Origin: Sedimenticola sp.
GTDB lineage: Bacteria; Pseudomonadota; Gammaproteobacteria; Chromatiales; Chromatiaceae
DNA length: 14,477 bases
Direction of reading: 5' to 3'
NCBI GenBank assembly: GCA_027041035.1
Contig: JALULB010000309.1
Span: 6,872 to 21,348, forward strand
Part shown: positions 2,282 through 5,182 of the stretch, in pieces
Layout: each line of letters begins with the position of its first letter
Position numbering within the stretch: the stretch's first letter is position 1
Made by a program: the position numbers and the translations under genes
Notes under the pieces: model-generated
Database searches by the model: none
What the model was told of the DNA's origin: nothing
What the model saw: only the letters and a program-made list of their open reading frames with translations

Positions 2282-3628
2282 TCAGACCGCGTGACTGACG
2301 ATATAGCGAAATTTCCCGGATTTCTCCGCCAGTATCTCGTCGACGGCCTGTATGTCGATCTCCACCGATTCACCCAGGCGCTGCTTCAGCCCCGCCTCGA
2401 TACGATTCCGGACATCCGCGTCGAAGTCCGCGTCGGTCACCAGATAGACGCGGGTTCTGTCGACCGATTCCTGCACGATCTTGAAACGCTGCACGCCGGG
2501 CTCGTCGCGAATCACATAGATCAGCGCCAGTCCATGCATCAGCGTGCCGTCCTTGGCGATGACGAAATCGGTCGAACGGCCCTCGATCTTCTCCAGTATC
2601 GGCAGGCCACGCCCACAGGCGCACTGGCCTTCACCCAATGCACCGATATCGCCGGTGCGATAGCGGATGAACGGGTAGTCGCCGGTCGCCAGATGGGTCA
2701 CGACGATCTCGCCCGATTCACCCGGCGCGACCGCTTGCCCGTCCCGATCGAGTATCTCCACGATGATATCTTCCGCGGTGATATGCATATTGCCTTGCGG
2801 GCAGGCATGCGCGATAAAGCCGGCGTCACGGCCACCATATCCATTCGCCACCGGGCACCCGAAGGCACGTTCTATCACGGCCTTCTGTTCGTCGTACAGA
2901 CGTTCCGAGGTAACGAAGGCAACGCGAATCCCGCGCTGACTCAGATCGACGCCCTGGTCCAGCGCGTGCTGGCCGATACGCGACAGCGACGACGGATAGC
3001 CAAACAGCATCGCCGGGCGGAACGCGTGAATCTCCTCGACGAAGCGATCCAGGTTCCGGGGTGACATGTCGAAGGCCGGAATCAGGCGGCTGCGAAACAG
3101 ACGGTCGCGCAGCGCTCTTACCCTGTCCTGCGAACCCAGCTCGACCGGAGAACCCCAGACGACGATCTCGCGATCGCCGATGTCCACGTCCCACCAGCGC
3201 GTCGCGCGCCATTTCGCCGCGACATCGTGCGACACGCGCTCGTTGCCGATGTGGAACACCAGCGGCTCGCCGGACGATCCTCCGGTATTGAAGCGTGCCA
3301 GTCCGACCGCGTCGCTGGCCTTCATGTCGTCGGCATTCTGGCGAATGATCTCCTTGGTCAACAGCGGCAGGCGACGCAGATCGTCCAGCGAACGCAGATC
3401 CCCGGCATGGAAGTCCAGTTCGGAGAACACCCTTCGATAGTAGGGTACTTTTTCAGCGGCGCGTTTCAGCAGCGTCCGCAGACGCTCCAACTGATACGCC
3501 CGCAGACGCTCCGCGTCCCACCACTGGCTCTGTTCCATGTGGCGACGCACCGCTACGCTGGAATGGTGCTTCAAGCGTTCGTGCAACGGAAAAAGCACGC
3601 CGGAAACCAGTTTTGTATAGAAATCCAT
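2282..3628 (-). CDS. PaaK/CapK-like adenylate-forming enzyme (phenylacetate-CoA ligase family)
   Basis: A 448-residue member of the phenylacetate-CoA ligase/CapK branch of adenylate-forming enzymes, which activate a carboxylic acid with ATP. The phosphate-binding loop is NTGGSSGEPL (114-123), the aromatic/adenine motif is YGGRDAG (264-270), and YRTGDIG (323-329) carries the ribose-binding Asp. The C-terminal lid ends with KSGKFRYIV (436-444), where K436 or K439 could be catalytic. C276 (CPQGNMH) and C336/C338 (CACGRGLP) are positioned like the cysteine pairs of this subfamily. The start chosen is ATG at 3628 with AGGA seven bases upstream; a TTG one codon earlier is less likely. Such enzymes recur in capsule and exosortase loci, where their acyl substrate is not defined. 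The gene heads the second block and lies just downstream of the IS66-type mini-element. Confidence 0.88.
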   Translation of the reverse strand: MDFYTKLVSGVLFPLHERLKHHSSVAVRRHMEQSQWWDAERLRAYQLERLRTLLKRAAEKVPYYRRVFSELDFHAGDLRSLDDLRRLPLLTKEIIRQNADDMKASDAVGLARFNTGGSSGEPLVFHIGNERVSHDVAAKWRATRWWDVDIGDREIVVWGSPVELGSQDRVRALRDRLFRSRLIPAFDMSPRNLDRFVEEIHAFRPAMLFGYPSSLSRIGQHALDQGVDLSQRGIRVAFVTSERLYDEQKAVIERAFGCPVANGYGGRDAGFIAHACPQGNMHITAEDIIVEILDRDGQAVAPGESGEIVVTHLATGDYPFIRYRTGDIGALGEGQCACGRGLPILEKIEGRSTDFVIAKDGTLMHGLALIYVIRDEPGVQRFKIVQESVDRTRVYLVTDADFDADVRNRIEAGLKQRLGESVEIDIQAVDEILAEKSGKFRYIVSHAV

Positions 3629-3635
3629 CAAGACA

Positions 3636-3639
3636 TCCT
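3636..3639 (-). promoter_or_regulatory. ribosome binding site AGGA for the PaaK-like gene
   Basis: On the minus strand AGGA is followed by seven bases and then ATG at 3628. It supports the ATG over the adjacent upstream TTG. It lies outside the mobile element, so the insertion did not remove it. Confidence 0.55.
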
Positions 3640-3658
3640 GCTGTCGACGACAATGCCG

Positions 3659-3666
3659 ACTTTCAT
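3659..3666. repeat. left target-site duplication (ACTTTCAT)
   Basis: ACTTTCAT directly abuts the GTAA end of the element and is repeated exactly at the other border. The bases flanking the two copies differ, so the repeat is exactly 8 bp. Confidence 0.85.
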
Positions 3667-3835
3667 GTAACTACTCAGCTAACCGCTGAAATGCGCCAGC
3701 TCTGCGTTCAAAAATGGTCATTTACACTTGTAACTCGGCAATTGCTCCTGCATTGCCCTAAGTAAGTTACATCCCTGTAACGATCACATTTTTTGCCTTG
3801 ATCTGACGCATTTCAGCGGCGATCTGAGCAGTTAC
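3667..3835. repeat. imperfect 29-bp inverted repeat pair nested in the mini-element
   Basis: Positions 3667-3695 and 3807-3835 are inverted repeats of each other at 25 of 29 positions with no gaps, including 13 perfect pairs (CCGCTGAAATGCG at 3683-3695). The right arm ends GAGCAGTTAC, one base different from the true right end GAGTAGTTAC. It therefore looks like a second transposase end located 30 bp inside the outer one. Confidence 0.75.
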
Positions 3836-3845
3836 CCTTTATTTG

Positions 3846-3862
3846 ACTACTCGCTGAGTAGT
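3846..3862. repeat. short palindrome in the right end of the mini-element
   Basis: ACTACTC (3846-3852) and GAGTAGT (3856-3862) form a 7-bp stem with a 3-base GCT loop. The right half is part of the terminal repeat. It has no run of T on either side, so it is not a convincing terminator. It is better read as end structure of the element. Confidence 0.55.
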
Positions 3863-3865
3863 TAC

Positions 3866-3873
3866 ACTTTCAT
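3866..3873. repeat. right target-site duplication (ACTTTCAT)
   Basis: This is the second copy of ACTTTCAT, immediately after the GTTAC end of the element. The intact duplication implies insertion rather than rearrangement, with little decay since. Confidence 0.85.
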
Positions 3874-4045
3874 TGACTCTGACAATTATATCGCCTCCGC
3901 CAGCCAAACGCCGGACTCTCGCGTGCGTGCCATTGCGCGCTTGGCAAGGCGCGAGGAGGCCATGGGGCCATTCCCCACAACGACGGACAACGCCACCAAG
4001 GGCGGAAGACTGCATGCGGGAGTCCCGAAGCTTGGCGGATGGAGG
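3874..4045. other. non-coding remainder of the gap between the two gene blocks
   Basis: Between the mini-element and the stop of the upstream glycosyltransferase there are about 170 bases without a recognisable gene. They hold the TATAAT box and two small hairpins: TGGGG/CCCCA at 3963-3977 and CGGG/CCCG at 4017-4027. Neither hairpin is followed by a T-run in the transcribed direction, so I do not call an intrinsic terminator. Confidence 0.5.
3885..3890 (-). promoter_or_regulatory. possible -10 box (TATAAT) for the second gene block
   Basis: On the minus strand a perfect TATAAT lies upstream of the PaaK-like gene, beyond the mini-element. I see no good -35 hexamer 16-18 bases before it (TTGGCT is only 11 bases away), so the call is weak. 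If real, its distance to the ATG would have been about 50 bases before the element inserted and is now about 256. Confidence 0.3.
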
Positions 4046-5182
4046 CTATAATCCAGCCCTACCCGCCAGCTCATGATAGAGCGACAGCCACTGCCCGCGC
4101 ACCGTCTCCCAGTCGAAAGCCTCCACGCTTTCCCGGCCGTTTTCGACCAGGTGACGATACAATTCGCGATCATGCAGCAGGCGACGCAATGCCTGTCTCA
4201 GGCAGGCATCATCGTCCACCGCGCACAGCAGCGCGTTATGCCCATCCTCGACAAGAAACGGGATGCCGCCGGCACGCGTCGAGACGATGGCGACGCCCAC
4301 CGCCATCGCCTCGATCAGCGAGTTCGGCGTATTGTCCACGCGACTGGTATTCAATAGGATGTCCGCCCGCTGGTAGAGCGCGATCATCGCATCGCGATCC
4401 AGACGACCAAGAAACTCGGTATGCGCCGAGATGCCCAGTTCCTCGGCCTGCTCGCGCAGCGCCTCGGCCCGCGGGCCTTCCCCGGCAATCAGCAGACACG
4501 CACCCGGCGCCTCGGAGAGCAGGCCGGCAAAGGCCCGCAACGCCACGTCCACGCCATAGATGGATTCCAGATTTCGCGTCACCGCGATCACTGGTGAACG
4601 TGGGTCCGCGATCGCCGCTTCCGGTTTGAAACGAAAACGCTCCAGCATCACGACATTCGGAATCACCCGGCTATCGAGCCGCCATTCGGCAAATACCTCG
4701 CGCAGGAAACCCGAAGGCACGACCATCGCTTGAGCCCGACGCATCACCGGCATCACCCAGCGTGCCTGGGAGCGCAGAAAGACGCGCGCCTGTCCGCCCC
4801 GATAGTTGATCACCACCGGCTTGCCACGCAAGCGCGCAATCAGGATGGCGGGCGTGGCGAACAGATGCCACGACCACCCGGAGTTCGCCATCAGATGCAC
4901 GACATCCACCGCGCCCAGCTCGCGCCACAGGGAGGTCAGATAGGGCAGCAGGCGCGCGCCGGCGCGGACGCCGCGAATCCGTCCCATCCAACGCGGCCAA
5001 TAAGCTGGATTGACAGCGACGAAACGGACATCGCAGCCCTCTTCCCGGAGCAGATCCACGAGTTGCGCGGTCTGCATCGCCATACCACCATTCGGCGGCG
5101 GCGCCGGACCGATGACGGCCAGCTTCAGCGGCGCGTCGACCGCGACAGTCTCAACCACCACGGCGCTGGAGCAGACGCTCAT
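4046..5182 (-). CDS. glycosyltransferase family 4, exosortase locus
   Basis: A GT-B fold retaining glycosyltransferase of 378 residues from the ATG at 5182. The N-terminal domain starts at LKLAVIGPAPPPNGGM (19-34), the usual acceptor-side glycine loop. The donor-sugar side is in the C-terminal half: AVTRNLESIYGVDVAL (200-215), AGEGPRAEAL (233-242), and the E-x7-E-like region SRVDNTPNSLIEAMAVG (280-296, E291). No membrane segment stands out, so it is probably a cytoplasmic or membrane-surface enzyme acting on a lipid-linked sugar. The start is uncertain: the ATG at 5182 overlaps the preceding gene by 32 bases and lacks a ribosome binding site, while GTG codons at 5161 and 5158 are also possible. 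The frame is open upstream to 5356, but that part is a shadow of the neighbour. It is the last gene before the gap at 3629-4045. The sugar specificity is unknown. Confidence 0.88.
   Translation of the reverse strand: MSVCSSAVVVETVAVDAPLKLAVIGPAPPPNGGMAMQTAQLVDLLREEGCDVRFVAVNPAYWPRWMGRIRGVRAGARLLPYLTSLWRELGAVDVVHLMANSGWSWHLFATPAILIARLRGKPVVINYRGGQARVFLRSQARWVMPVMRRAQAMVVPSGFLREVFAEWRLDSRVIPNVVMLERFRFKPEAAIADPRSPVIAVTRNLESIYGVDVALRAFAGLLSEAPGACLLIAGEGPRAEALREQAEELGISAHTEFLGRLDRDAMIALYQRADILLNTSRVDNTPNSLIEAMAVGVAIVSTRAGGIPFLVEDGHNALLCAVDDDACLRQALRRLLHDRELYRHLVENGRESVEAFDWETVRGQWLSLYHELAGRAGL

Follow-up and report, generated by a model that had tools for sequence, protein, structure and literature searches.

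The 199-bp sequence at positions 3667–3865 of the window (the whole stretch of 14,477 nucleotides analysed here) is a MITE: it is short and non-coding, has inverted ends within direct repeats, and occurs in many copies. Very probably it is a MITE with IS66-type (ISBst12-group) ends, moved in trans by TnpC, and a member of a family built on a 121-bp hairpin. The gene-less element would be mobilised by an IS66-family TnpC that recognises roughly the last 13 bp, and its insertion duplicates 8 bp of target; the action of TnpC and its chemistry are proposed.

Re-measurement reproduced exactly the coordinates, the perfect 13-bp inverted ends and the 8-bp duplication given by a first-pass annotation of this DNA. 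The direct repeat ACTTTCAT was found at 3659–3666 and 3866–3873, enclosing 199 bp. The inverted arms spanned 14 nt (3666–3679 and 3853–3866, 100% complementary) and contained the 13 nt of the earlier description (3667–3679 and 3853–3865). A longer inverted repeat, I1, paired 3667–3702 with 3800–3835. A second right end (CTGAGCAGTTAC, 3824–3835) was present in addition to the one first described. No ORF of 60 aa or more occurred within 3667–3865, in agreement with the stated lack of coding capacity. Two minus-strand ORFs flank the element. It stands upstream of a gene for an AMP-binding enzyme, 36 bp from the first start codon possible there; exosortase and O-antigen-ligase-type genes belong to the same cluster. 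The parts of the element are as follows.

3659–3666, no strand: left target duplication copy ACTTTCAT; 26 of the 31 complete copies, among them this one, have private perfect duplications
3667–3865, plus strand: complete element, 199 bp, non-coding; at least 40 strong matches in its own genome
3667–3679, plus strand: terminal inverted repeat on the left, GTAACTACTCAGC; without mismatch in 28 of the 31 complete copies
3667–3835, plus strand: irregular foldback core of the 121-bp family, enlarged here at the tip; covariance-model match of 113 bits over model positions 1–121
3734–3780, plus strand: tip insert of ~47 bp, missing from the 152-bp sister form; forms compared by eye, borders approximate
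3824–3835, plus strand: inner right end CTGAGCAGTTAC; alternative border in some copies (in the own genome, at L179 of genome G409, and at three places outside the class)
3836–3852, plus strand: variable spacer between inner and outer right ends; substitution rate of 22.5%, compared with 1.3% for the core stem
3853–3865, plus strand: terminal inverted repeat at the outer right end, GCTGAGTAGTTAC; border of the 26 copies with perfect duplications, and exact in 18 of the 31
3866–3873, no strand: right target duplication copy ACTTTCAT, a direct repeat

Copies and target duplications

The genome that contains the window (G000) is a 2.26-Mb draft in 404 contigs, 62.7% complete. It held at least 40 strong copies of the element (DNA search, E below 1e-50; 40 of 125 first-look candidates scored), some of them cut by contig ends; the absence of any second copy had been named beforehand as a sign of ordinary intergenic sequence. 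The fetched loci contained 41 matches; 10 of these were truncated or at an edge and were set aside, and the other 31, one of them a sister form of 153 bp, were complete and had both flanks. Perfect 8-bp duplications were found at 26 of the 31 and were all different, as the first-pass annotation had anticipated; three copies had duplications with one mismatch, and two had none. When the register was shifted by 1–3 bases, 0 perfect duplications remained, and 0.8 were expected after shuffling of right flanks among copies. The exact 13-mer occurred 65 + 74 times in this genome, against 0 + 0 for a backwards control. Divergence from the consensus ranged from 1.0 to 6.6%; at 1.0%, the window element shared the lowest value with L002, consistent with the earlier view that it is undecayed. 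One of the set-aside copies (L050) had the duplication CTTGCGTC, and a 168-bp copy in L043 had the inner right end as its border and was flanked on either side by CCGCCATT. The two copies lacking a duplication (the first copy in L013, and L015) had a variant right end in common, GCGGAGTAGTTAC.

For an ordinary intergenic or REP-like sequence, rather than a transposed unit, the high copy number would be the sole support. REP and REPIN sequences (IS200/IS605-like) are not known to make a target duplication, whereas this element makes duplications of 8 bp, which in 26 of 31 copies were private, perfect and exactly at the ends, with none in shifted registers. These data refute such an origin, which we consider extremely improbable. 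Neighbours could be called for 30 copies, a further 11 being at edges, and none of the 30 was spanned by a predicted ORF, although this does not prove intergenic targeting, as insertion would itself break an ORF. The 199-bp element had no match among plasmids and phages, and viral contigs searched with one core pattern gave nothing.

The first-pass annotation had also predicted an empty site in related strains, with a single ACTTTCAT. In two congeners the orthologous gap lacked the element, and its aligned flanks were 42 bp (G002) and 46 bp (G001) apart. The rest of the intergenic sequence was absent too, including the repeat at 3886–4053 and any ACTTTCAT, and the gap was therefore rejected as a clean empty site. 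That repeat is a second dispersed sequence, with ends like ATTATATCGCCTCCGCCA and TGGCGGATGGAGGCTATAAT, and it makes up most of the remaining intergenic gap of the window. Queried with 3866–4060, G000 gave at least 44 matches and G002 at least 40 (40 candidates scored in each), and G001 gave no match.

A further 40 places were fetched from G000, G001, G002 and G042, and an element could be delimited in 37. Duplications were perfect in 24 of these, had one mismatch in 7 and were worse in 6, with the reservation that the choice of border, among a few candidates each, partly used the duplication itself and so favours good ones. The size was 151–153 bp in 25 of the 37; compared by eye, the window type has ~47 bp more than these sister forms, at the foldback tip. 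Elements with the same ends and other insides were also observed. One in G001 (L150, 158 bp) had CTCTAAAT on both sides and matched the window element only in the 13-mers. Another in G134 (L241, 188 bp) had the same 13-bp ends and TCGGCAGG on both sides, with a non-significant core match (14.8 bits, E 0.12). Two same-ended elements of ~140 bp in G078 (L243 and L244) were rejected as examples with unrelated insides: both matched the core model on the minus strand, with 44.6 and 48.5 bits, and are distant members of the hairpin family.

IS66-type ends and the probable partner transposase

The assignment to IS66 is drawn from the private 8-bp duplications, the 13-bp end on tnpC fragments, the similar ends of complete IS66 elements, and the same-ended elements with other insides. 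The ends begin with the GTAA of IS66, as does the second end of ISDge4, in the parts of the two papers available (PMC12898284, PMC12888890). ISDge4, an ISBst12-group member of the IS66 family whose transposition has been observed, is bounded by GTGACTACTCAGCA and GTAACTGCTCAGCA and has an 8-bp repeat, according to the available part of its description (PMC12898284). The left end GTAACTACTCAGC matches GTGACTACTCAGCA at all but one of 13 letters, and GTAACTGCTCAG, the reverse-strand reading of the inner right end, is identical to GTAACTGCTCAGCA over 12 of 12 letters, as the latter appear in that text (PMC12898284). These near-identical ends, together with the exact 13-bp end on two tnpC fragments, bear out the IS66-type reading of the first-pass annotation. 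ISDge4 carries a gene for a 449-aa transposase in the same account; the window element, in contrast, has no gene and has a foldback core (PMC12898284). Classic IS66 elements (ISPa75 and relatives) have three genes, for TnpA, TnpB and a DDE transposase, and ends beginning with GTAA, GTAAGCGTCCGG and GTAACCGTCCGG; from the portion of the source available, they share GTAA with the window element and differ from it beyond these letters (PMC12888890).

Searches with PF03050 (IS66 transposase) gave 0 matches in G000, a draft that is 62.7% complete and in 404 contigs, and 0 matches in G042, which is 98% complete, despite 119 exact ends there. Fragments were found in G001, G002 and G032. The G032 fragment (L058), truncated where the contig stops, retained the final 117 residues of an IS66 transposase, and its stop codon TGA was inside the end GGCTGAGTAGTTAC. 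A tnpC fragment in G110 (L062) likewise had its stop, TAG, inside GCTGAGTAGTTAC; G110 had three further ends, all of one type and with the exact 13-mer, at which no link to tnpC was seen. Among the 55 loci checked, the exact 13-mer was at tnpC only in L058/L061, which are one place, and L062. Thus, the earlier expectation of a full IS66 with the same ends held in part: exact 13-bp ends bounded tnpC sequence in G032 and G110, as fragments and at one end, but no complete tnpC element with exact GTAACTACTCAGC at both ends was found, and the ends of complete elements were similar rather than identical.

When the L058 tail was searched against 210 genomes of the order, relatives were found in 66. 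Thirty loci were fetched; in ten of them, paired GTAACT-type ends enclosed a long tnpC frame. Perfect 8-bp duplications bordered four of the ten (L070, L072, L078 and L083; frames of 484–501 codons, stop to stop), and a matching duplication was absent at the other six (L064, L069, L073, L079, L086 and L087). L064, L067, L070 and L078 scored above the NCBIfam cut-off for IS66 transposase, and the fragment L058 below it. Of the other copy-bearing genomes, 11 of 18 had PF03050 matches. Twenty-two loci fetched from these gave a GTAACTAYTCA-type end in six (L192, L193, L201, L202, L203 and L205) and no paired ends around tnpC; one tnpC, in G420 (L193/L242), was apparently interrupted. A transposase tail was repeated in G018 as numerous short copies (14 matches); in L082 these sit between GTAACTATTCA-type ends and may represent a deletion derivative of an IS66 from a different lineage.

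Complete IS66-family elements from the same bacterial family were ~1.5–1.7 kb long, with a transposase and GTAACT-type ends, and those searched had no hairpin core. The left end of L064 resembles the MITE beyond the end itself (GTAACTATTCAGCTAAAAGCTGAAA, by eye). Insides derived from the partner by deletion are true of some MITEs and not required of them. Here they were not found: the core cannot be called IS66-derived because 0 of 43 tnpC-bearing loci searched (L108 repeats L064) held it inside the IS; the model used can overlook a core that is interrupted, such as that of L106. The elements with other insides share little beyond the 13-bp end, which makes the requirements of an IS66/ISBst12 transposase directly testable.

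Spread and borders of the hairpin core

With the 152-bp form as query, at least 21 of 369 sampled genomes of the class gave matches, in 13 families (two candidates scored per genome). The matches covered 100 positions or more in 10 families and were short in three (f67, f76 and f89), and many of them stopped at position 121 or 122, that is, at the inner right end. Twenty of these places were fetched and 18 delimited, with 8 perfect, 3 one-mismatch and 7 worse duplications, the borders again being chosen partly by the duplication. One of them (L179, in G409) was an element of 121 bp with GAATTACT on both sides.

A covariance model built on the core was run against 398 genomes sampled from the phylum, with nine candidates scored in each, and matched at least 71: G000, 20 genomes of the same class, and 50 outside it, in families f207, f226 and f227. 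The 20 same-class matches were weak (best E 2e-10, model scores only) and may be chance hairpins. Twenty listed places outside the class were fetched, and 8 had perfect 8-bp duplications, against 0.025 expected from swapped flanks. Of these 8 elements, five, of 142–155 bp, were bordered by an outer right end, and the other three, of 122 bp, stopped directly at the inner one. Another 11 loci, returned with the model search, gave three perfect duplications. Duplications at inner and outer right ends indicate that both borders are used. The 121-bp family has a left end GTAACTAYTCAG and an inner right end CTGARCAGTTAC; beyond the latter there is often a tail of ~20–34 bp that includes a second right end.

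The fold and its possible roles

RNA folding of the whole element gave z-scores of −9.0 and −9.6 for the two strands. A core alignment of 29 sequences (A2) folded as one irregular hairpin, in which RNAalifold placed 35 pairs, 16 of them compensated. For the main pair count, sequences were taken by BLAST, end pattern or place and aligned without structure, and the structure came from folds of the same sequences. In this 45-pair structure, 92.3% of cells were paired, 21 pairs had changes on both sides and the covariation was 0.188; shuffles gave 85.5%, 10.0 and 0.081, respectively, with the reservation that kinship alone can push related sequences above shuffles. Slid structures reached at most 15 pairs and a covariation of at most 0.099; a slide of +1 gave 15 pairs and 0.077. 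Outside the class, the pair count was 28 of 36, a result that leans toward structure because the sequences were found with a structure-containing model. These counts show that the hairpin shape has been kept by compensating changes.

The irregularities were also conserved. Opposed columns A7–C118 and A16–C109 were each mismatched in 26 of the 29 sequences, C41–C86 in 28 and C32–A95 in 25. Among copies of one genome, letters had changed at 2/360 in the inner right end, 17/780 in the outer ends, 38/2878 (1.3%) in the core stem, 32/1408 (2.3%) in the unpaired core and 121/538 (22.5%) in the spacer. These copies, which are very similar, had 0 compensated pairs and 73 broken pair cells. Since close copies show broken pairs and none compensated, with a conserved stem and inner end, the fold appears to be under constraint in the mobile lineage and not in each copy once inserted, though the copies are too similar to settle this.

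Several accounts of the fold were weighed. One, somewhat less likely than not, is a single family of mobile hairpins moved by IS66-type ends, in which the irregular 121-bp fold is kept across many families of the class and beyond it and, as single-stranded DNA or RNA, would be a functional part required for mobility or host tolerance. The most likely reason for such conservation would be that the hairpin helps the element to move or makes its insertions harmless. Alternatively, the hairpin could act as RNA, either structured or regulatory, and be carried along by IS66-type ends; host or element would then use its transcript, for example as a stabiliser, terminator or RNase target. The strong folding on both strands, the compensation of 21 of the 45 pairs, the fixed mismatches and the lower substitution rate in the stem than in the unpaired core would suit this role, as would the single terminator-like site at 3844–3864 (0.4 expected). 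No compensated pair and 73 broken cells were seen within one genome, however, similar as those copies are. Moreover, no Rfam family matched at the gathering score (up to E = 1, the one match was a human lncRNA region far below the cut-off), and no promoter-like site was found in 3560–4100 (0.5 expected). On this evidence, a structured RNA is a doubtful explanation.

Near-palindromes are known to mutate toward symmetry by template switching, and the compensating changes could have arisen through such correction during replication instead of selection on the fold. Pure correction should erase mismatches like those retained here and is disfavoured on that ground: 10 of 16 examined off-structure opposed positions were paired in no more than 2 of 29 sequences (one through gaps), while their neighbours changed together. 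The remaining 6 were paired more often, in 4 to 28 of 29. We regard this explanation as quite unlikely.

MITEs are usually regarded as decayed leftovers of one IS. The near-constant length and folded shape of the core over large distances, with changing stem letters, suggest that a MITE family can be long-lived and have a constrained structure of its own. A MITE as such is a known kind of element. MITEPye1, linked to IS1182, has direct repeats and can be folded into a long stem-loop (PMC11578231), and MITECca01, with 169 copies, is linked to IS982 (PMC9769881), in the parts of these papers available. Like the window element, both are short and non-coding with inverted ends, but their partner is not an IS66, and conservation of a hairpin across families is not described for either in those parts (PMC11578231, PMC9769881). 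No IS66-linked MITE was found in the available text of the literature searched, mostly papers open without subscription; a term search of a review of prokaryotic MITEs did not return the word IS66 (PMC10969869). As far as could be checked, a conserved irregular hairpin with two possible right ends, present inside and outside one class, is new.

Two minor observations concern other repeats. The tip insert at 3734–3780 resembles short repeats of the GGCAATTGCTCCTGCATTGCC type that stand alone in G007, G027, G031, G034, G054 and other genomes. In a Sedimenticola draft, two MITE copies (L106, positions 61–374, and L109, from 4233) are seemingly interrupted or cut off by a repeat of the TATACTCGTCGCCCATG type.
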